Virus record (IMG/VR): IMGVR_UViG_3300045970_000595
Span: 1-41,864 of that record
Strand: one strand, 5' to 3'
Source of the DNA: a virus
DNA: 41,864 nucleotides
The notes beneath the pieces are model-generated. The model was not told the origin of the DNA. It saw nothing but the letters and a program-made list of their open reading frames with translations, and did not search any database. This document shows positions 26,420-41,713 of the stretch, piece by piece. A program made the position numbers and the translations under genes. Positions within the stretch are counted from its first letter, which is position 1, and every line of letters begins with the position of its first letter.

Positions 26420-27577
26420 ATGGCCTGGCACACGATCAAGCACTCCTGCGGACATGAAGAGCGGCACCAACTCTATGGCCCCGGCAAGACCCGCACCTGG
26501 CGCGCCGGGAAGCTCGCCGAAGAACCCTGCGAAGACTGCGCCAAGGCAGAGCGTGAGGCTGCCAACGCGGCGGCAGCGTCAGAGAACGCGGCCAACGGAC
26601 TGCCGCCACTGACCGGTTCCGAGAAGCAAGTCACCTGGGCGGAGACCGTCCGCGCCAACAAGCTCGACGTCATCGGCCGCGTCTTGGCCGGGGACATGAC
26701 CGGCACCGAGCGCGTCTGTTTCTGGGGCGAGTCGCTCAAGGTCGATGACCCGGCGGTCCCCTGCCTCGTCGACGCGCTGCAACGGGAGACGGCCGCCCAC
26801 TGGTGGATCGACCATCGAGACCTCAAGACGTCACTGCTGTTGACGATGGTCGCCCGGGCGATGCCGGCGGCGCTGCCGCCCGCGGTAACCGACGACACCG
26901 CGGCGGCAACCGCCCTGATCGAATCCACGCTTCGCCCCGCGATCGAGCACTCGGCAACGGTCGCCGACATCCGCATCGAGGGGCAGCGGATCAACCTGCT
27001 GTTTCCCGAGAAACTGGATGCCTTCCGCGACTGCGCGAAGGCGCGTGGCTACCGCTGGGACGAACAGCGCCGGGCCTGGTACCGGCTCATCGATGAGTGG
27101 TCCGGGCCACTGGCCGACCGGGCGGCGGAGATCGGCAACGCGCTGCTCGCCGCCGGGATCTGCATCCGCATCCAAGACCCGAGCATCCGGGCGGCGGCGG
27201 TGTCCGCCGCGTTCGCTCCGGAGCGCAAGCGCTGGGTGCGGGCGCGCGATGGCGGACCTTTCGCCGGTTGGCTGGTCCTGACCTGGGGCCGCGACGACGA
27301 CCTCTACGCCAGCGCCAAGGCCCTGCCCGGAGCGCGCTACGACAAACCGGTGGTCGTGGTCCCGGCCGCCCAATATGCCGCGGTGGAGGATTTCGCCGAG
27401 GCGTGGGACCTGGCCATCAGTGCCGGCGCCAGGAAGCTCCTGGACACCGCGCGCCAGGTGCACGAGCAGGCGCTGCTCGCCGTGCCGAAGCGGGCGCCTC
27501 GGGCGCCGCGCGGGCGGGGCCCCATGCCGCCGGTCGCCGACGCGGTGGACGCCAGCTTGATGGACTCCGCGCCGTGA
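26420..27577 (+). CDS. HARP-like partner of the SNF2 helicase with zinc knuckle
   Basis: A 385-residue protein. The N-terminus has HSCGHEERH and CEDCA (residues about 8-40), a probable zinc knuckle. GSEKQVTWAETVRANKL near 66 is a motif of phage and plasmid accessory proteins. Residues about 183-260 (IRIEGQRINLLFPEKLDAFRDCAKARGYRWDEQRRAWYR) resemble the HARP-type domain that precedes the ATPase core in SMARCAL1-like SNF2 proteins. The C-terminus is a basic Pro/Arg-rich tail. The gene runs into the SNF2 gene by a TGATG overlap, so the two proteins probably work as one machine split over two genes. The HARP match is by eye. Confidence 0.65.
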   Translation: MAWHTIKHSCGHEERHQLYGPGKTRTWRAGKLAEEPCEDCAKAEREAANAAAASENAANGLPPLTGSEKQVTWAETVRANKLDVIGRVLAGDMTGTERVCFWGESLKVDDPAVPCLVDALQRETAAHWWIDHRDLKTSLLLTMVARAMPAALPPAVTDDTAAATALIESTLRPAIEHSATVADIRIEGQRINLLFPEKLDAFRDCAKARGYRWDEQRRAWYRLIDEWSGPLADRAAEIGNALLAAGICIRIQDPSIRAAAVSAAFAPERKRWVRARDGGPFAGWLVLTWGRDDDLYASAKALPGARYDKPVVVVPAAQYAAVEDFAEAWDLAISAGARKLLDTARQVHEQALLAVPKRAPRAPRGRGPMPPVADAVDASLMDSAP

Positions 27578-28998
27578 TGGCCTGGACCGCCCGCACCGCG
27601 CTATTGGTCCACCAGGACGCCGCCGTGGTCAAGGTCCTGCCGTCGCGGGTCGGCGCCCTGTTCATGGAGATGGGCACCGGAAAGACCCGCACCGCCGCGG
27701 AGTTGGCGCGGCTGCGGCAAGGCAAGATCGACCAGGTGGTGTGGTTCTGCCCGTGCGCCCTGAAAGAGACGATCCGGCGCGAGGTACTCAAGCACACCAG
27801 TTGCACCGCGGCGGACATCCATGTGTTCGACGACCACACCAGCGAGGCGACGGTCCCGGCGGTGCTTTGGTACATCGTCGGCATCGAGTCGATGAGCAGC
27901 TCGGCCCGGGTCATCTTTACCGTGAAGGGCCTGATCACCGAGCGGACCATGGTGGTGGTCGATGAGTCCGGATACATCAAGGGCGCGAAGTCGCGCCGGA
28001 CCGAGCGGATTACCCTGCTCGCCCGCGAGGCCCGCTATCGGCTGATCCTGACCGGCACCCCGCTGTCACAAGGCATCGTGGACCTGTTTGCGCAGATGCG
28101 CTTCCTGTCGCCGACCATCCTGGGCTATCGATCCTTCCACGCCTTTGCCCGCAATCACATCGTCTGGTCGGCGCGCTTCCCCGGCATGATCGAGGGCGAG
28201 AAGAACCGGGATTATCTGGCGCAGCGCATCCGGCCCTATGTCTACCAGGTGACGAAGGCCGAGTGTCTGGACCTCCCGGACAAGCTCTACGCCTCCCGCT
28301 ATTGCACCCTGACGCCCGAGCAGGCCGCCGCCTACGCCGAGGCCAAGGAGCGCTTCCTGTGCGAGGACTACTTGTTCGAGGATGGCTGGGCGCGGTCGAT
28401 CGCCGTGTTCCGGATGTTCACCGCGCTGCAACGGATCGTCTGCGGTCACCAGCGGGCGCCCGATGGGGATCTGATCTGCTACCCAAGCCGGCGGCTCGAC
28501 CTGCTGTTGACCGTGCTGCGCGAGCTGCCGGCCAGAGAGCCGGTCGTCATCTGGGCCAAGTACCGGCAGTCGGCCGCCGACATCGGCGCGGCCCTGGTTG
28601 CTGAGCAGGGGCCGGAGCGGGTCCATGCCTACCACGGGGGGCTCTCGGAGCGCAGCCGTCAAGCGAACCTGGACAACTGGCGCGCCCGGGGCGGGGCCTT
28701 GGTCGCCACCCAGGCGTGCGGCGGCCATGGCCACGACTTCACCGCGGCCCGGTACGCGATCTATTACGCCAATGGCTTCAAGTATTCCGAGCGGCAGCAG
28801 ACCGAGGACCGGCTGCACCGCATCGGCCAGACCCGGGCGCCCACCTACATCGACATTTGGAGTAGCGCCGGCATCGACTCCCGCGTGGACAAGGCACTTG
28901 CCCGCAAGGGGAACGCCGTTGAGGAGTTCCGGCGGATCGTCGACCGGGTGAAGCATGGCAGTAAGGCGCGGGTGCGGCGACTGATTGAGGGATTGTGA
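27577..28998 (+). CDS. SNF2-family DNA helicase/translocase
   Basis: A 473-residue ATPase that moves along double-stranded DNA. Motif I is MEMGTGKTRTA (Lys36), motif II VVVDESGYIKG (Asp129, Glu130), motif III LTGTP (158-162), and motif VI QTEDRLHRIGQ near 430. DES in place of DEAH is common in phage SNF2 proteins. ATG 27577 is used since it overlaps the upstream stop; the longer open frame before it is a shadow of the HARP-like gene. No nuclease or methyltransferase domain is fused. The neighbours suggest an accessory DNA-processing or modification machine rather than core replication. Confidence 0.9.
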   Translation: MAWTARTALLVHQDAAVVKVLPSRVGALFMEMGTGKTRTAAELARLRQGKIDQVVWFCPCALKETIRREVLKHTSCTAADIHVFDDHTSEATVPAVLWYIVGIESMSSSARVIFTVKGLITERTMVVVDESGYIKGAKSRRTERITLLAREARYRLILTGTPLSQGIVDLFAQMRFLSPTILGYRSFHAFARNHIVWSARFPGMIEGEKNRDYLAQRIRPYVYQVTKAECLDLPDKLYASRYCTLTPEQAAAYAEAKERFLCEDYLFEDGWARSIAVFRMFTALQRIVCGHQRAPDGDLICYPSRRLDLLLTVLRELPAREPVVIWAKYRQSAADIGAALVAEQGPERVHAYHGGLSERSRQANLDNWRARGGALVATQACGGHGHDFTAARYAIYYANGFKYSERQQTEDRLHRIGQTRAPTYIDIWSSAGIDSRVDKALARKGNAVEEFRRIVDRVKHGSKARVRRLIEGL

Positions 28999-30215
28999 TG
29001 GGCAAGCACTATCTGGACATCGACTGCTATTCCGCCGCCCGTGAGCGGGTGCGGATCATCCTAGAGCACTTCCCGCGCTTCTACGTGTCCTTCAGCGGCG
29101 GCAAGGACTCCGGGGCCTTGCTCAATCTGGTGGTCGACGTGGCCCGCGAGATGGGCCGCCTGCCGGTGACCGCCCTGATCCTGGACCTCGAGGGCCAGTA
29201 CCAGCACACCATCGACTACCTCGCGCGGGAGTGCGACCGGCCCGAGGTGAAGGCCCTGTGGGTGTGCCTGCCGCTGCACCTGCGCAATGCCGTGTCCCAG
29301 TTCCAGCCGCACTGGCTGTGCTGGGACCCGCGGTGTCCCGAGAAGTGGATTCGGCCCCTGCCGCGGCGGGCCGATGTGATCAGCGATGAGGGCCACTTCC
29401 CGTTCTTCCGGAGCGGGATGGAGTTCGAGGAGTTCGTGCCGGCTTTCGGCGACTGGTTCGCCGACGGGGTGGAGACCGCCTGTTTCGTCGGCATCCGCTC
29501 GGACGAATCGCTGAACCGGTACCGGACCATCACGAGCGAGACCAAGCAGCCCTGGCAGGGCCACCCCTGGACGACGCGCGTCACCCGCGATACCGGCAGC
29601 GTCTACAACGCCTATCCGCTCTACGACTGGGGCACGGCCGATGTCTGGATCGCCAACGCGCGCCAGCACTGGGATTACAACCGGGTCTATGACCTGATGC
29701 ACCTGGCCGGGCTCGGCATCCACCAGATGCGCCTGTGCCAGCCCTACGGCGATGACCAGCGCAAGGGGCTTTGGCTCTTCAAGATCCTTGAGCCCGAGAC
29801 CTGGTCGCGTGTGGTCGAGCGGGTGCAGGGCGCGAACTTCGGTAACCGCTACGTGCAGTTGACCGGATCGGTCATGGGCAACATCCGCATCGACCTGCCG
29901 GAGGGGCACACCTGGCGCAGCTATGCCTACCTGATCCTGACCTCGATGCCGCCCCCGGTGGCGACCCACTACCGGAAGAAGATCGCCGTGTTCTTGCGCT
30001 GGTGGCGCAAGCACGGCAAGGACCTCGGCTATCCACGCGTCACCGATGAGGCCGCCGCCGCCCTGGAGGCGAAGCGCAAGGCCCCGAGTTGGCGGCGCAT
30101 CTGCAAGACCCTGCTCAAGAATGACTACTGGTGCAAGGGGCTGAGCTTCACTCAGACCAAGCGCGAGATGGAGCGGCAGCTCGATCTGGTCACCCGCTAC
30201 ATGGAGGACCTATGA
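28998..30215 (+). CDS. ibrA: IbrA-like PAPS-reductase-family protein (DUF3440)
   Basis: A 405-residue PP-loop ATPase-type protein. FYVSFSGGKDSGALLNL (SGGKDS at 33-38) is the nucleotide-binding loop of the PAPS reductase/DndC superfamily. Long IbrA-type sequence follows: LCWDPRCPEKWIRPLP, GIRSDESLNRYRTI, YPLYDWGTADVW, and a C-terminal WRRICKTLLKNDYWCKGLSFTQTK. In enteric prophages IbrA acts with IbrB as a regulator of surface-protein genes; its chemistry is not established. The paralogue DndC takes part in DNA phosphorothioation. Three overlapping neighbours (SNF2, GNAT, IbrB-like) form one operon. Symbol given by resemblance. Confidence 0.85.
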   Translation: MGKHYLDIDCYSAARERVRIILEHFPRFYVSFSGGKDSGALLNLVVDVAREMGRLPVTALILDLEGQYQHTIDYLARECDRPEVKALWVCLPLHLRNAVSQFQPHWLCWDPRCPEKWIRPLPRRADVISDEGHFPFFRSGMEFEEFVPAFGDWFADGVETACFVGIRSDESLNRYRTITSETKQPWQGHPWTTRVTRDTGSVYNAYPLYDWGTADVWIANARQHWDYNRVYDLMHLAGLGIHQMRLCQPYGDDQRKGLWLFKILEPETWSRVVERVQGANFGNRYVQLTGSVMGNIRIDLPEGHTWRSYAYLILTSMPPPVATHYRKKIAVFLRWWRKHGKDLGYPRVTDEAAAALEAKRKAPSWRRICKTLLKNDYWCKGLSFTQTKREMERQLDLVTRYMEDL

Positions 30216-30652
30216 GCGTCATCATCCGCAACCTGGTGCACGACGCCGAACACCAGGCACTGCTGTTCAGCCTGATCGGCGAGTTGGCCTTAGACAAAAA
30301 CGTGCACGCGGCGCTCGGGGCCTGCCCGACCAGTGAGCCGGGCCGGGTGTGGTGCGTCGCGACGGATACCGAGACCCGCGCGACCATGGGCTTTGCGAGC
30401 CTGCACCTGTTGGCCGATGGGCAACGCGGCCAGGTCCGGCACCTGTACGGGGCCGATGGGCCCCAGGCGGTGCGGGTCTTGGGGCGGCTGCTGACCGCGA
30501 TCAAGGATCAGGCGCGGGCGCGCTCGCTGCGACACCTGACGGCCATCGACCGCACGGCCGCCGGCAAGCTGTTTCTCTCGCACGGCTGGCAGGCGGGCGC
30601 GGCCCGCGGCCAGTACACCACCTACACCCTGGAGTTGGCCGATGATCAGTGA
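30212..30652 (+). CDS. GNAT-like acetyltransferase
   Basis: A 146-residue protein with the layout of a small GNAT fold: a helical start, a beta strand TMGFASLHLL, a central QVRHLYGADGPQAVRVLGRLLTAIKDQARARSLRHLT that corresponds to the CoA-binding strand-loop-helix, and a C-terminal LFLSHGWQAG with YTTYTLEL. The usual QxxGxG/A loop is not clearly present, so activity is uncertain. It sits between the IbrA- and IbrB-like genes with overlaps on both sides (ATGA and 11 bases), which implies a shared function. Confidence 0.65.
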   Translation: MSVIIRNLVHDAEHQALLFSLIGELALDKNVHAALGACPTSEPGRVWCVATDTETRATMGFASLHLLADGQRGQVRHLYGADGPQAVRVLGRLLTAIKDQARARSLRHLTAIDRTAAGKLFLSHGWQAGAARGQYTTYTLELADDQ

Positions 30653-31274
30653 CCTCCTCGATCGCCTCGAAGCGGCCCTTGCCGAGGCCCCGGCCGACGC
30701 GGCAACGCGGGTCGAGCGGTATAACCGCCTGGTGCGGATCGCCGCGGCGCATGTCGATCTGCCGCACCCGGTGCTGTCGGTGCAGCTCGTGCCGGTGGAC
30801 GCGGTCCATGGCAACGACTACAACCCGAACAAGGTGGCACCGCCGGAGATGCGGCTGCTGCATCTGTCGATCTCCAAGGACGGGATTACCATGCCGGTGG
30901 TCGCGGCGCCGGACGGGGCCGGGGAATATGTGGTGGTCGATGGCTTCCATCGGACCACGATCGTCCAGCAGCACGCGGACATCCGGACCTCCCTGGCCGG
31001 CTACTTGCCGGTCGTCCAGTTGCCGAAGACGGTGGAGGAACGGATTACCTCGACGGTGCGGCACAACATGGCGCGGGGAACGCACCAGGTGGAACTGACG
31101 GCCAAGCTCGTCACGGCCCTGAAAAAGCACAACTGGAGCAACACCCGCATCGGCCTGGAACTGGGCATGGACCCCGACGAGGTGTTGCGGCTGAAGCAGA
31201 TTACCGGCCTGGCTGAGGCATTCGCCCATGAGGACTTCAGCCGCGCCTGGGAGCCCGACCATGCCAATCACTAA
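30642..31274 (+). CDS. ibrB: IbrB-like ParB-domain protein
   Basis: A 210-residue protein with the ParB/sulfiredoxin-type nucleotide-binding core: VPVDAVHGNDYNPN (51-63), a LHLSISKDGITMPVVV-type strand-helix, and YVVVDGFHR (97-104), where DGFHR replaces the GERR of ParB. The following RHNMARGTHQVELTAKLV and GMDPDEVLRLKQITGLAEAF segments, with a final FSRAWE, are characteristic of IbrB. DndB of the phosphorothioation system carries a comparable DGQHR motif. Last gene of the cassette; about 350 bases without a clear gene follow. Confidence 0.83.
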   Translation: MISDLLDRLEAALAEAPADAATRVERYNRLVRIAAAHVDLPHPVLSVQLVPVDAVHGNDYNPNKVAPPEMRLLHLSISKDGITMPVVAAPDGAGEYVVVDGFHRTTIVQQHADIRTSLAGYLPVVQLPKTVEERITSTVRHNMARGTHQVELTAKLVTALKKHNWSNTRIGLELGMDPDEVLRLKQITGLAEAFAHEDFSRAWEPDHANH

Positions 31275-34509: not shown

Positions 34510-34782
34510 TTATGCGGTTTCCTTGTGAGTCTCGCACACTGTGCGCGCCTCGGCGGCGGTTTGATAGATCCCTAAGCACGCGCACCGCTGGGGCACATGC
34601 TGGCCGATTGCGTAGTGCTCCCGCCCGCCCAACTCCGGCGGCGGCCAATCCTGCCACCGGATGTCCGGATAGGCATCCGGCGCCCAGGCGGCGAAGCGCC
34701 AGCCGTCCGCACCCTTGGTGCCGCACACGTGATAGCCCTCCAGCGTCGTCTCGTGATACTGCGAGCCGCGTATCCAGTGCAT
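34510..34782 (-). CDS. Hypothetical 90-residue phage protein
   Basis: Small protein with many Trp, Cys and His: HETTLEGYHVCGTKGADGWRFAAWAPD, then GREHYAIGQHVPQRCACLGIYQTAAEARTVCETH. The pattern of a GWRFxAW core and a C-terminal TAAEAR helix is common in short hypothetical proteins near phage replication genes; function unknown. It lies between the origin-like palindrome and terS and may be first in the late transcript. Two stop codons in a row (TAATAA) end it. Confidence 0.6.
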   Translation of the reverse strand: MHWIRGSQYHETTLEGYHVCGTKGADGWRFAAWAPDAYPDIRWQDWPPPELGGREHYAIGQHVPQRCACLGIYQTAAEARTVCETHKETA

Positions 34783-34800
34783 CGGTCCGACCTCTGTTCA

Positions 34801-35055
34801 TTCGGTCCGACCTCGTGGATAGGTCGGACGGGCTGTAACCCGCGCCCTGTCTAGTCCGGTCCGACCTGTCCTACCTGTCCGACATGTATGTCTCACACAT
34901 GTGCGCATACGCGCGCGCGGAGGCGCCTGTACGCGCGGGGGCGCATATACGCGCGGGAAACGGTCGGACAGGTCGGACAGGTCGGACCGGCCCAACACCC
35001 GCGCGGGTTGCAGCCCGTCCGACCTTCTGTTTTCGGTCCGGGGGGTCGGACCGAA
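34801..35055. repeat. ori: Nested palindrome with GTCGGAC iterons, candidate replication origin
   Basis: Three inverted repeats are nested around one centre. Outer: TTCGGTCCGAC (34801-34811) with 35045-35055, 11 of 11. Middle: 34823-34845 with 35001-35023, 22 of 23. Inner: 34856-34883 with 34963-34990, 27 of 28. The inner arms are each three GTCCGAC/GTCGGAC units at 9-bp steps; about ten perfect heptamers occur from 34785 to 35051. The centre (34884-34962) is largely alternating purine-pyrimidine, rich in CGCG and CATA. It directly follows the primase/helicase gene. Iterons, potential cruciform and replication neighbour fit an origin. Confidence 0.72.
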
Positions 35056-35059
35056 GCGG

Positions 35060-37606
35060 TTAGAACTGGGGTACATCATCGTCCTCCATAGGCCGGACCT
35101 GGACAGCGGCATCCGCCCAAGCGGCTAGCACCTTCGGCCCCGGTCGATAGCCGCGCACCCGCTGCCCCGCGACCGTCGGCCGCGTCGCCCGCCAGCCTAG
35201 CGCGTGGATCAGCATCCCCGCCCGCGTCCAGTCCTGCGGCTTCATGTCTTTCAATTCAAACCCGAGGCCGCTGCCCATGATCGAGTCAAGCGCCACAAAG
35301 GTGCACATGCGCTCCTGCGCCGTGCGGCAGGCCGCGAGCCGACCAGCCAGGAACTGCTGAATCCGACCCTCCCAGACATCCCCGGCAACTCGATCTCCCT
35401 GCTGCTCTTCGACGATCGCCTTCTCGTCATCGGATTCCGCCCACCATCGCTCGCCCTGGGCATAGCGCACTCCGGCCTCTGCCCACAATTGGTCACGCTC
35501 CGCGTGCAGTCCCTCTAGATCGATCTCGCCACAAGCGACCGGCCAATAGCGACGGTTCCCGGTCAGGTCGCGGAATATCTCCGCCTGATTGGTCGTGCCC
35601 GCCATCACAGATTGACGCGGGAATGAATCCAGCCGATGCCCATAGGGCAGCCGGAAGCGATCCACGGGAGAGGACAAGAACGCCTTGAGGGTGCGGGCAT
35701 CCGCCTTGTTCATTCCCTCCAATTCCGGAAGTTCAATCACCCACGCCCCGCCCATCGACTGCATCGCATCCTTGTTGCTGAAATCGATGCGCGTATCAGA
35801 AGTGAATGCTTCACCATACAAGGTTCTGAGTGCAGAGGACTTTTTGATACCCTGTTCGCCCTCAAGAATCAGCACGGTGTCGGCCTTGCAGCCGGGCGAG
35901 CGAATGCGTGCGACCGACTGAATCAGCCACCACGTGCCCACCCACATCAGGTATCGATCAAGAGCAACCCGCTGGGAATCGGTCAACGCCAGGTCATCCC
36001 GCGCCCCCGCCCCCATCAGCGTCACCAGCCAGGACGCCAAACGCGGCCGGCCGTCCCAAATCAGACTATCCAGGTACTCCCGGACCGGATGCACCCGATG
36101 GAGCAACGCGACCCCCATCACCGCCGTAGCCACCTTCGGCAACTGCGGTTCAATCCGAAAACGCTCCGCCAGCCAGTATTGCAATTCGCCATCATGCGCG
36201 TTGGTCCATTCCTCCCGCGAAGCGTCAGCAAACGGCAGAGGCTTACGCAGCACGATGCGCTGAGAGAACTCGCACCACGCCAGCACTCCCTGCCATTCCT
36301 TCACGTTTTCAAGGATTACGCGGACGTTGAAAGCTGTGGCTTGCAGCCCCCCCCGCTCTGTATACATCAGCCGATCAGCCCAGGGCGGTCGGTCGCGACG
36401 ACCTGGCGGGCCGCCTGATCCATCGTTAGGGGGCGGCCGAGGGGGCGCAGCGCCGCCCGAACCCTTTTGCTCAGGGGCGGCATTGGGCGGCTCAGGCGGC
36501 GACGGATCAGCCGCCCGTGGCCCCTCATCGACCTGCTCAGTGCAGGGCGGCGGTCCCGGTGGCCGTGAAGACGACCCGGGCGGGCGCGTTTGGCGCCACC
36601 CCAGGAGTGTCGGATCGATCCCAATTTGTCGGCACAGCCACAGGGCCGCATCCGCCGAGGTAGTCGGCGCGCCCCATTCCAACACCAGGTCAATCGGCGT
36701 CTTGCCCCGCTCCTCGCCCCAATCCTGGATACCGGCCGGGATGATCGACAGGTCCTCTTCCAGGTCCCGCCCCAGCGCCTTCGACGTGCATCGGTACCCC
36801 TCGCGATACGGCCGCGCCCCCGGCAACAGCACCGGCACCCAGGCGCCCAGGGCGCCCAGGGCCTTCGTGTTCACCTTCGCGAAAAACGATGAGGCCGCCG
36901 CGGCCGGCCGCTCCCGCCGATCGCCACCCGCCGTCGCCCGCGGCACGGGTGCTGCCTGCGGATCGACCGCAACCAGGGCCAGCAGCCAGGGCGGCGCCGT
37001 CGCGATCGGGCACGACTCCGGATCCCGGCCCGGCGCCCAGGTATAGCCCCCGCCCGCCGCCAACTGCGACCCCGGCAGAATCACATAGCCCCCGTCCCCC
37101 CGCACATCGAGCCCCGGGGTGATGATCTGCCCATTGGGCGCCCGCTCAAAGGGGACCTCCGGATAGCCGTCCGCGCCCCAGGTCTCCGACCCCAGGCCCA
37201 GGCGGCTCTGCTTGTTTGGGACCATCCGCCCGTCGAGCGGATGGCGGAAATACAGATGGCGCCCGCCCGAACCGGTGATGGCCTCCACCGTCGGCGGCAG
37301 GGCGCCAAACACCCCACAGAGCGCCGCCACCGTCTCCATGCCCGGAGCGCCCTTTTTTACGTCCACGTCGAGGACGAAGACCCCGCCCCAGACCGCCGCC
37401 CCGGTTGGCATTCCGATCAGCGACCGGCGATAGGTCGCCCACCAGCCGCGGACCGTGCTCTCGTCGAGCGTCGCATCGTGAAAACCATTGCCGCCCGCGG
37501 ACCGCGGCACCGCTGGCCGCCGCTCCTGGCCACAGGGGAACACCGGCCGCCCGCCCCGCACATGCGCCAGCGCCGCCTCCAGATTGGGCGAGTGCGGGTT
37601 GCTCAT
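35060..37606 (-). CDS. Primase-polymerase / VapE-type helicase replication protein
   Basis: An 848-residue replication protein. The N-terminal Prim-Pol domain (about 8-215) has VFVLDVDVKKG (Asp80, Asp82) and SGGRHLYF (113-120). A Pro/Gly-rich linker fills about 341-408. The C-terminal VapE-like ATPase has LEGEQGIKKSSALR (Walker A 583-590), AWVIELPELE (Walker B 621-630), a GTTNQ sensor near 670 and NRRYWPV. It would prime and unwind DNA at the phage origin; the nested palindrome begins directly behind its stop. The ATG overlaps the stop of the gene upstream (ATGA). It is the last gene of the leftward early operon before the origin. Confidence 0.92.
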   Translation of the reverse strand: MSNPHSPNLEAALAHVRGGRPVFPCGQERRPAVPRSAGGNGFHDATLDESTVRGWWATYRRSLIGMPTGAAVWGGVFVLDVDVKKGAPGMETVAALCGVFGALPPTVEAITGSGGRHLYFRHPLDGRMVPNKQSRLGLGSETWGADGYPEVPFERAPNGQIITPGLDVRGDGGYVILPGSQLAAGGGYTWAPGRDPESCPIATAPPWLLALVAVDPQAAPVPRATAGGDRRERPAAAASSFFAKVNTKALGALGAWVPVLLPGARPYREGYRCTSKALGRDLEEDLSIIPAGIQDWGEERGKTPIDLVLEWGAPTTSADAALWLCRQIGIDPTLLGWRQTRPPGSSSRPPGPPPCTEQVDEGPRAADPSPPEPPNAAPEQKGSGGAAPPRPPPNDGSGGPPGRRDRPPWADRLMYTERGGLQATAFNVRVILENVKEWQGVLAWCEFSQRIVLRKPLPFADASREEWTNAHDGELQYWLAERFRIEPQLPKVATAVMGVALLHRVHPVREYLDSLIWDGRPRLASWLVTLMGAGARDDLALTDSQRVALDRYLMWVGTWWLIQSVARIRSPGCKADTVLILEGEQGIKKSSALRTLYGEAFTSDTRIDFSNKDAMQSMGGAWVIELPELEGMNKADARTLKAFLSSPVDRFRLPYGHRLDSFPRQSVMAGTTNQAEIFRDLTGNRRYWPVACGEIDLEGLHAERDQLWAEAGVRYAQGERWWAESDDEKAIVEEQQGDRVAGDVWEGRIQQFLAGRLAACRTAQERMCTFVALDSIMGSGLGFELKDMKPQDWTRAGMLIHALGWRATRPTVAGQRVRGYRPGPKVLAAWADAAVQVRPMEDDDVPQF

Positions 37607-39623: not shown

Positions 39624-39699
39624 GCCTGATTCCGCCCCGCGGATCAGCCCGCCCCCTCGCTGTGAGTGGGGGGCACCATCCCAACCAACAGGAGGCCGC

Positions 39700-39795
39700 A
39701 TGGCCAACCGCATCGATTTACCGGCAAACACCCCGGACCCGAAAGACCAGGACGAAGACGACAAGGACGGCAAAGGCAAGGACGAAGAGGAATAG
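39700..39795 (+). CDS. 31-residue acidic/lysine-rich small protein
   Basis: An ORF with GGAGG (39691-39695) 4 bases before ATG 39700. It begins MANRIDLPANTPDPKD and continues as a run of Asp, Glu, Lys and Gly to the TAG at 39793. This charge pattern suggests a disordered peptide. It stands first in the rightward early transcript, just before a strong hairpin and the ParB-like gene. Function unknown; too short for ordinary gene callers. Confidence 0.5.
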   Translation: MANRIDLPANTPDPKDQDEDDKDGKGKDEEE

Positions 39796-39805
39796 CCCGA
39801 GCCCC

Positions 39806-39847
39806 CCATCGGCGCCCGCCGCACTCCCCGGCGGCAGGCGCCGATGG
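39806..39847 (+). terminator. Strong hairpin upstream of the ParB-like gene, attenuator candidate
   Basis: CCATCGGCGCC (39806-39816) and its exact complement (39837-39847) form 11 bp, capped by CGCCG/CGGCG (39817-39833). Only TTT follows, so termination may be partial. It lies between the 31-residue ORF and the ParB-like start and could let the first ORF be made in excess. Confidence 0.55.
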
Positions 39848-39886
39848 TTTCCCGAGAAACAAGCACCCCATTATCGAGCAAGCACC

Positions 39887-41713
39887 ATGGGAATCGTGAC
39901 GCAGGTCGTGGCGGCCGGAGATGACCAGATGGCGGAACACTCCGCCACCGTGTGGTGCGATCAGTGCCGCACCCCCGGCCCGACGCATCGCGAGCAGGGC
40001 CAGGCCGCCTATGTCGCCACCGTCGCCGCCGGGAAAGCCCAGAAGGCGCACTGGGTGGTAGCGGGGCACCATCCACAGATCCGCGCGCTATGCCCGGGGT
40101 GCGCGGTGTTGGACCCGCAGTTTGTGGCCCCGGCGGGATCTGCGCCCGAACCAGCCCCGGACGATAACGCCGCACCGGTCAGCGCCCCGCCTGCGCGGGC
40201 GACCCGGCGCCGGAGGATTCGTCTGGCTGAACCGGCCGGCCCGACCGACGCATGGTGTCGCGACGCTGGATTGACCCCGACCGACCGCTGCCCCGATACC
40301 CTCGAACTGCCCGGCACCGAGTACCGTCCAGGCATCGTTTATCAAATCCCGTGCGCGCTGCTCGCTCGCGATCCCGATCAGCCCCGGGTGGAGTTCGAGC
40401 CGGCCGCCCTGGAGGCCCTGGCCGCCGACCTCGTGGCCAGCGGCCAGCAAAGCCCGATCATGTTCCGGCTCGGCCCCCGCAACGACGGTGAGGCGATCGT
40501 TCCCCAACTTTACGTGGTCCATGGTGAGCGGCGCTGGCGAGCGGCGCAGCTCGCCGGACTGTCTGCCGTCGCCGGGATCTTGGATCCACAGGATGACCAC
40601 CCGGGCCATGAGTTACCGGCCGAACGCGTGCTGCGGCAGGCCACCGACAACGATCTGCATGAGCCGCTCAGTGCTTGGGACTGGGCCTATACCATCAAGC
40701 GCCTGACCGAGCCGCCGCACAACATGCGGGTCGGCGAGATCGCCAAGGAACTGACCCGCCGCGGCATCCCCGGCAAGTCGCACTCGGTGGTGTCCACCTT
40801 CTTGTCTTTGCACAGGCTTCCGGTCTGGGGACAGCTCGCGATCCAGAGCGGCGCACTCACCCGCTCCCACGCCAAATACATCCTGCCCCATCTGGACCGC
40901 CCCGAGATCATGGACGCCCTCGGCGTCTGGCTCGCCGAACGTGTCGCCCAGTACATCCCCGCCGGTACCGATCTGGCCGACTGCGCATCAAAGGTCGACG
41001 GCAGCGAGCCCCCGCGCGAGCTCACCATCCCCGAGTCCATCCACGCCGATTTTGACGCCCGCCCGGTCAGCATCCCCGATCTGCGCTACCGCATCGCCGA
41101 CTTGTACAAACAGCACTACATGCCGCTGGAGGGCGGCAAGTGGTTCGCCGATCCAACCGCATACGTGTCGGCGCGGTTCGATTCAGCCGCGGAATGCGCA
41201 CGCTGCCCGCAATACGCGGTAGTCGACGGGACGGAGCGCAAGGCCAGTTACTGCTGCGATACCACCCTGGTCTGCTTCTACGCCAAGAATCAGGCGGCGG
41301 CCCGCGCCCTGGACGAAGCGCACGCCGTCGCCGCCATCGAGCGCCAGGCGCGCGGCGAGCCCGCGGGCTCGGGCGAGGCCAAGCGGGCGCAGCGTGCCCG
41401 CGAACTCGAACAAGAGCGGCTTGAACGCGACGCCATCAAGGCGGCCATCAAGAATCTGGACGACGACGAGGCCGCCATCGACCTCTTGCTGTACGCCCTG
41501 ACGGTAGCCGATTTCCGCCTGGAAAAGGACAAGCGCGGAAAGATCAGCATCGAGAGCCTGTCGACCAAGCGCGCCCGCAAGGGCACTGCCGCCATGCTCG
41601 GGCCGTTCATCGATGACGCCCTCGGCTCCCGGTACTACGAACCGGATATCCGCCGGGCCGTCGCCGATTACCTCGGAGTCGAAACCCCCGCCGATCAGGA
41701 GACCCCCGCTTGA
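39887..41713 (+). CDS. ParB-like DNA-binding protein with zinc knuckles
   Basis: A 608-residue protein. The N-terminus has WCDQC and CPGC (about 23-72), a likely zinc site. The ParB N-terminal domain spans about 150-250 with RDPDQPRVEF (161-170) and the nucleotide-binding VVHGERRWRAAQ (210-221); a helical DNA-binding part follows (MRVGEIAKELTRRGIPGKSHSVVSTFLSLHRL). A second cysteine cluster lies near 512-545 (ECARCPQY, YCCDTTLVC), and the C-terminus is charged helix. No ParA is present, so plasmid-style partition is doubtful; control of replication or transcription is as likely. Start choice is 39887; ATG 39929 is also possible. The stop overlaps the TTG of the DUF551-like gene. Confidence 0.83.
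   Translation: MGIVTQVVAAGDDQMAEHSATVWCDQCRTPGPTHREQGQAAYVATVAAGKAQKAHWVVAGHHPQIRALCPGCAVLDPQFVAPAGSAPEPAPDDNAAPVSAPPARATRRRRIRLAEPAGPTDAWCRDAGLTPTDRCPDTLELPGTEYRPGIVYQIPCALLARDPDQPRVEFEPAALEALAADLVASGQQSPIMFRLGPRNDGEAIVPQLYVVHGERRWRAAQLAGLSAVAGILDPQDDHPGHELPAERVLRQATDNDLHEPLSAWDWAYTIKRLTEPPHNMRVGEIAKELTRRGIPGKSHSVVSTFLSLHRLPVWGQLAIQSGALTRSHAKYILPHLDRPEIMDALGVWLAERVAQYIPAGTDLADCASKVDGSEPPRELTIPESIHADFDARPVSIPDLRYRIADLYKQHYMPLEGGKWFADPTAYVSARFDSAAECARCPQYAVVDGTERKASYCCDTTLVCFYAKNQAAARALDEAHAVAAIERQARGEPAGSGEAKRAQRARELEQERLERDAIKAAIKNLDDDEAAIDLLLYALTVADFRLEKDKRGKISIESLSTKRARKGTAAMLGPFIDDALGSRYYEPDIRRAVADYLGVETPADQETPA

Follow-up and report, generated by a model that had tools for sequence, protein, structure and literature searches.

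The 277-bp block that directly follows the primase gene of this phage is, with a probability that we put at roughly 0.87, the replication origin of the phage and is predicted to be recognised by its own primase-helicase. From its sequence it is probably an origin close to the SaPI/PriRep type, at which two hexamers would be loaded. We read the block as an origin because many phages and also small plasmids have an array of this kind immediately 3' of their SF3 initiator gene, and because its layout is kept while the repeated word changes, co-varying with the C-terminal winged helix of the initiator. The suggestion of an origin made in an earlier note on this DNA is thus strongly supported by comparison with relatives.

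In the window, by which we mean the whole 41.9-kb stretch of DNA that was analysed, the block fills the entire gap (34783-35059) between the primase gene (35060-37606, minus strand), whose end directly adjoins the array, and an open reading frame of 90 amino acids (34510-34782, minus strand). Heptamers of the form GTCGGAC/GTCCGAC, about ten of which had been reported behind the primase gene, number exactly 10 at 34785-35051, as compared to 0.06 expected in 277 bp from composition and to 4 in the rest of the window. Some of them do follow each other at the exact 9-bp steps described before (34963/34972/34981), and with one base change allowed the same step is seen at 34859/34868/34877. The array comprises 11 clear copies of a 9-bp word, GTCCGACCT, and one degenerate copy. 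All seven exact copies of the word in the window lie inside the block, as do 11 of the 25 copies that differ from it at one position or none; matches elsewhere are isolated and close in number to the composition expectation, and a word scan of the whole window finds this single array. The sites are arranged 2-1-3, a 75-nt centre, 3-1-2, which on the plus strand reads >> < >>> (centre) <<< > (x) <, where x is the degenerate site:

35060-37606, minus strand: initiator gene, with Prim-Pol at residues 12-207, VapE-like SF3 helicase at residues 512-736 and a C-terminal winged-helix-like region at about residues 744-833
34783-35059, no strand: complete origin-like block, 277-bp gap from primase to 90-aa ORF
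34785-34793, plus strand: iteron GTCCGACCT, outer pair of the distal half, exact
34805-34813, plus strand: iteron GTCCGACCT, outer pair of the distal half, exact
34821-34829, minus strand: lone inverted iteron of the distal half, exact
34859-34867, plus strand: inner triple, site 1, exact
34868-34876, plus strand: inner triple, site 2, GTCCTACCT, 1 mismatch
34877-34885, plus strand: inner triple, site 3, GTCCGACAT, 1 mismatch
34886-34960, no strand: centre, 75 nt, with a 26-nt purine/pyrimidine alternating run, presumed opening site
34961-34969, minus strand: inner triple of the primase side, site 1, GTCCGACCG, 1 mismatch
34970-34978, minus strand: inner triple of the primase side, site 2, exact
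34979-34987, minus strand: inner triple of the primase side, site 3, exact
35017-35025, plus strand: lone inverted iteron of the primase side, exact
35036-35044, plus strand: possible degenerate 12th site GTCCGGGGG, weak, proposed from the six-site halves seen in relatives
35043-35051, minus strand: outer iteron of the primase side, GTCCGACCC, 1 mismatch

Two inverted repeats with arms at 34821-34845 (24/25) and 34856-34883 (27/28) share an axis at 34923 and together give 63-nt arms that are 84% complementary. The earlier note had described three repeats around one centre. This is true of these two, but the axis of the outermost repeat (34782-34792 with 35044-35054, 11/11) lies at 34918 and is thus displaced by 5 bp, so that the three do not have exactly one common centre. 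That the symmetry is far beyond chance is borne out: in the best 60-nt arms 50 positions match, as compared to at most 32 in 30 mononucleotide shuffles. The centre, which is 67% GC, contains the alternating purine-pyrimidine sequence noticed before, in a run of 26 nt that might take up Z-form or melt. A clean switch in GC skew near 34.9 kb, proposed as a check, is absent.

The protein encoded next to the block matches the Pfam families PF09250 (Prim-Pol, 8e-32) and PF05272 (VapE-like, 3.1e-69). Its sole match in a sequence search of the PDB is 7pds (E 2.8e-34), PriRep1 bound to dsDNA, and the same entry is the best fold match of a structure model covering residues 400-848 (mean pLDDT 87.9; Z 32.5 over 397 residues), followed by the C-terminal region of the NrS-1 phage primase-polymerase and by SaPI5 Rep (7ola). 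The primase is related to the hexameric self-loading initiators of the PriRep/Rep kind. Further matches to helicases of poxvirus, ASFV, AAV and papillomavirus (E1) are evidence of the SF3 fold only. At the C-terminus (residues ~744-833) the model predicts an H-H-H-E-E segment, which is the order of a winged helix.

At the DNA level the block has no match in 50,697 phage records, as would be expected if the layout alone is conserved. An exact-word search of viral contigs returned many isolated word matches without an inverted array; it was used as a lead only, and iteron-selected loci were excluded from the layout statistic. The closest relative among the viral contigs, L003, whose primase is 68% identical, carries an inverted GTCCAACCT/GTCCGACCT array in the same place, in the variant order << >> | << >>. 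A gapped search for inverted word pairs added nine new contigs, in which the gene adjacent to the array, where readable, encodes an SF3 helicase, mostly of the DUF5906 type and in L044 of the VapE type. Since such a search selects for the word, loci were then sampled by protein alone (160 loci, 102 non-redundant relatives of the helicase gene, VapE and DUF5906). Without reference to any motif, the 500 bp 3' of the gene contained 7-mers repeated at lag 9 in 60 of 86 loci, as compared to 7 and 8 in two control stretches, and at lag 18 in 55, as compared to 6 and 8. The signal was strong in 79 loci, and in 73 of them the tile of the ~7-kb locus in which the 9-bp lag is strongest sits at the SF3 gene's 3' end (13% expected); a strong 9-bp array is absent in 21 of 100 sampled loci. 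Loss of the symmetry in relatives, which the earlier note had named as grounds for abandoning its proposal, was looked for, and the symmetry proved to be conserved.

What the relatives share is the layout. With iteron-selected loci removed, 9-bp inner triples on both sides of a centre are present in 30 of 90 loci, as compared to 0 of 90 gene interiors and 0 of 90 shuffles. Exactly 6+6 sites occur in 17 of these 30 loci, the commonest orders being >><>>>|<<<><< and ><<>>>|<<<><<, and the strict layout is found mainly in DUF5906 phages (27/30); in a looser set, 35 of 75 loci have exactly twelve sites. The inner sites are nearly always spaced by 9 bp, with a gap of mostly 34-38 to the lone inverted site. 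The 2-1-3|3-1-2 order recurs with different words, commonly with six sites per half. The CG/CA alternating centre is a conserved feature too. The centres of the relatives are 45-135 nt long, and their longest CG/CA alternating run has a mean of 12 nt as compared to 6 in controls (Wilcoxon p 6e-10), although overall purine/pyrimidine alternation is not raised (0.52 vs 0.52) and the enrichment is confined to the longest run. Of the loci with a full core, 94% have this run in the gene-side half of the centre, and the AT-rich part is restricted to the distal, far-edge fifth (GC 0.37-0.44).

Copies within one phage mostly share one variant of the word, and words differ between phages. The fifth base of the word was compared across 20 GTCCNACCT-type loci, which include loci uniformly G, A, C or T: two sites of one locus carry the same base in 85% of pairs, and two sites of different loci in 31%. 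When the contribution of the rest of the protein is removed, the best correlate of word distance is the C-terminal winged-helix segment (residues 455-503 of L129; partial rho 0.37), with a max-statistic permutation p of 0.002 over 45 loci, all of the DUF5906 type, in a test that corrects for overall relatedness in part. As judged from this correlation, the 9-bp word appears to co-vary with the C-terminal winged helix of the helicase in DUF5906 loci.

Iteron arrays 3' of VapE are also found in named phages of Marinobacter, Pseudomonas, Corynebacterium, Paenibacillus and Bacteroides, those of the last three deviating from the strict order; in phages of Acidovorax and Streptococcus and in the gut phage NatCom the evidence for an array is weak or absent. 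Small plasmids weigh most, because they have no phage late functions that could confuse the reading. A 9.7-kb Roseomonas plasmid has a >>.<.>>>|<<< core behind a DUF5906 gene, and arrays that vary in regularity stand behind the SF3 genes of pGO128 (4.3 kb), pMP1 (7.6 kb) and pMNOD07 (9.8 kb). In these plasmids of 4.3-9.8 kb the SF3 gene is the only replication gene annotated; they also encode hypothetical proteins, and one gene of pMP1 is annotated as encoding a phage tail protein. As natural replicons of this build they lend indirect support to the idea that initiator and array together could sustain autonomous replication.

Could the symmetry be recognised as a folded structure rather than as words? 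For pRN1, which needs a 100-nt stem-loop 3' of orf904, Berkner et al. 2014 suggested that the origin is a stem-loop located 3' of the Prim-Pol/SF3 gene, extended this by analogy to Bordetella phage BIP-1, and stated that iterons found elsewhere are not origins (PMC4234260). An extruded hairpin of this kind would fit the 84% complementarity of the 63-nt arms in the window, and our protein likewise combines Prim-Pol, SF3 and winged-helix parts, and 3' of its gene there is a symmetric element too. We nevertheless consider a structural origin unlikely. In 32 relatives the spacers between the sites are only ~52% complementary across the arms (38% in shuffles), so that it is the order of the sites that has been kept, and not a foldable stem; a conserved foldable stem-loop was not found in the relatives, which keep the word order instead. 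Moreover, the arms are separated by a centre of 45-135 nt, and the words are kept as direct 9-bp repeats in a fixed order. The cruciform was rejected as a general mechanism on the spacer complementarity in these 32 relatives, which leaves the protein-bound cruciform of the earlier note unsupported in that sense, and its extrusion is not needed for the role of the block. Different from pRN1 and BIP-1, where recognition was assigned to a stem-loop and no iterons were found nearby, the symmetry here consists of binding words. BPP-1, a close relative of BIP-1, itself has a pair of words per arm: two inverted TTTGCCTCG pairs with a 9-bp step (NC_005357 26607-26710; L045:2108-2211), 467 nt 3' of the primase and across a small opposite-strand gene. 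Unlike the published BIP-1 stem-loop proposal, we regard these pairs as a candidate origin, and re-reading the Bordetella phage stem-loop origin as an iteron origin is suggested.

Even less probable is a packaging (pac/cos) or terminase recognition site. Terminase-type genes do follow within ~1-2 kb of the array in the window, BPP-1, L036 and L042. However, the array follows the SF3 gene and not the terminase; none is annotated in the ~2 kb downstream in Marinobacter phage PS3 and in the Corynebacterium, Paenibacillus and Streptococcus phages, such arrays also occur in plasmids that have no terminase annotated, and the word co-varies with the helicase winged helix. We give slightly less weight still to an operator or other transcription control element (repressor, terminator, antitermination) between the primase and late genes: the intergenic position and, in some relatives (L016), a NusG-like gene on the other side would suit it, but not the twelve sites in a conserved bipartite layout, the covariation with the helicase C-terminus, the occurrence of such arrays in plasmids without late genes, or the variable far-side gene among phages. 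A parS-like partition site for the ParB-type protein of the phage (39662-41713) is the least likely of all: a ParB_N protein is indeed encoded in the window, but it is the SF3 gene that the array accompanies and the SF3 protein with which its word co-varies.

As an origin the element belongs to the known class of SF3-initiator origins and is not a new class. The repeats bound by SaPI Rep and by SCCmec Cch2 lie immediately downstream of the genes for these proteins (PMC7581432). The likeness lies in iterons placed directly 3' of the gene for a self-loading hexameric helicase, for which recognition by the C-terminal domain is predicted here: the repeats occupy the 277-bp gap behind the initiator gene here and the corresponding place in 73/79 relatives, the initiator is homologous to the hexameric helicases PriRep1 (7pds; E 2.8e-34, Z 32.5) and SaPI5 Rep (7ola), and there are two iteron sets. 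An origin of this type would have an AT-rich opening region between the sets; the centre in the window is 67% GC, and the centres of relatives are AT-rich in the distal fifth only. Compared via the literature, the arrays described here differ in belonging to tailed phages and small plasmids, not to staphylococcal islands, and in their fixed 2-1-3|3-1-2 order, 9-bp step and GC-rich CG/CA block in the centre. In satellite phage P4 the alpha protein unites primase, SF3 helicase and winged helix and binds iterons (PMC4234260). By description, P4 thus shares the single primase/SF3/winged-helix protein and the bound iterons, but alpha has a Toprim-type primase and two separated iteron regions, as opposed to Prim-Pol and one array in our window. 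SV40 large T and papillomavirus E1 are also initiators of the SF3 group, and they assemble as two hexamers on a symmetric origin. They resemble what we propose for our system in both respects, E1 being among the fold matches, but have an N-terminal origin-binding domain and a different site layout.

We therefore envisage an origin that would work as follows. The C-terminal winged helix of the primase-helicase would read the 9-bp word, and the six sites on each side (2 outer, 1 inverted, 3 tandem) would collect the protein into two facing rings; six sites per half suggest about one site per ring subunit. The SF3 rings would then open the centre, and the fused Prim-Pol would prime the exposed strands, leading to bidirectional replication. 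More tentatively, and with the odds somewhat against it, the layout may be a stoichiometric loading code, in which six sites per half, one per subunit, specify two facing SF3 hexamers across a polarised centre with its CG/CA block on the initiator-gene side and its AT-rich edge opposite, and in which word and winged helix change together over time, giving every phage an origin-initiator pair of its own. Binding of the initiator to the block could additionally regulate the initiator's own gene.

What is new is the 12-site layout, its breadth and the covariation of word and reader. We found no description of the twelve-site layout in the open-access library that was searched, which leaves priority unproven. 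To our knowledge, replication origins are unknown for most tailed phages. A motif-blind rule, inverted iterons at a 9-bp step 3' of an SF3 primase-helicase gene, points to a candidate origin in some small plasmids and in the majority of the phages that were sampled for this gene. The 6+6 layout provides a directly testable model for the loading of two ring helicases without a separate loader, and the covariation offers natural pairs for studying how initiator specificity changes.

Several minor observations were made along the way. The array of L003 (L003:8569-8803) mixes word variants, with G at the outer and A at the inner sites, as if caught in mid-change. The 90-aa ORF of the window (34510-34782, minus strand) has no Pfam match, and L003 has an ORF of similar appearance at the corresponding position (from 8832). 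A different viral contig (L027:7964-8515) has a long intergenic region with numerous GTCCGACCT words and with a centre rich in CA/TG. At L020:3417-3741 GTCGGAC words adjoin the 3' end of a DUF927 helicase gene, hinting that similar arrays are used by a third helicase family. The window's 683-aa protein with a ParB_N domain (39662-41713, plus strand) lies near the contig end. The stretch 28995-31274 holds a PAPS-reductase/DUF3440 gene (406 aa) and, behind it, a second ParB_N protein (30642-31274), a pair that we take to resemble IbrA/IbrB; an SNF2-type helicase (27097-28998) lies ahead of the two.
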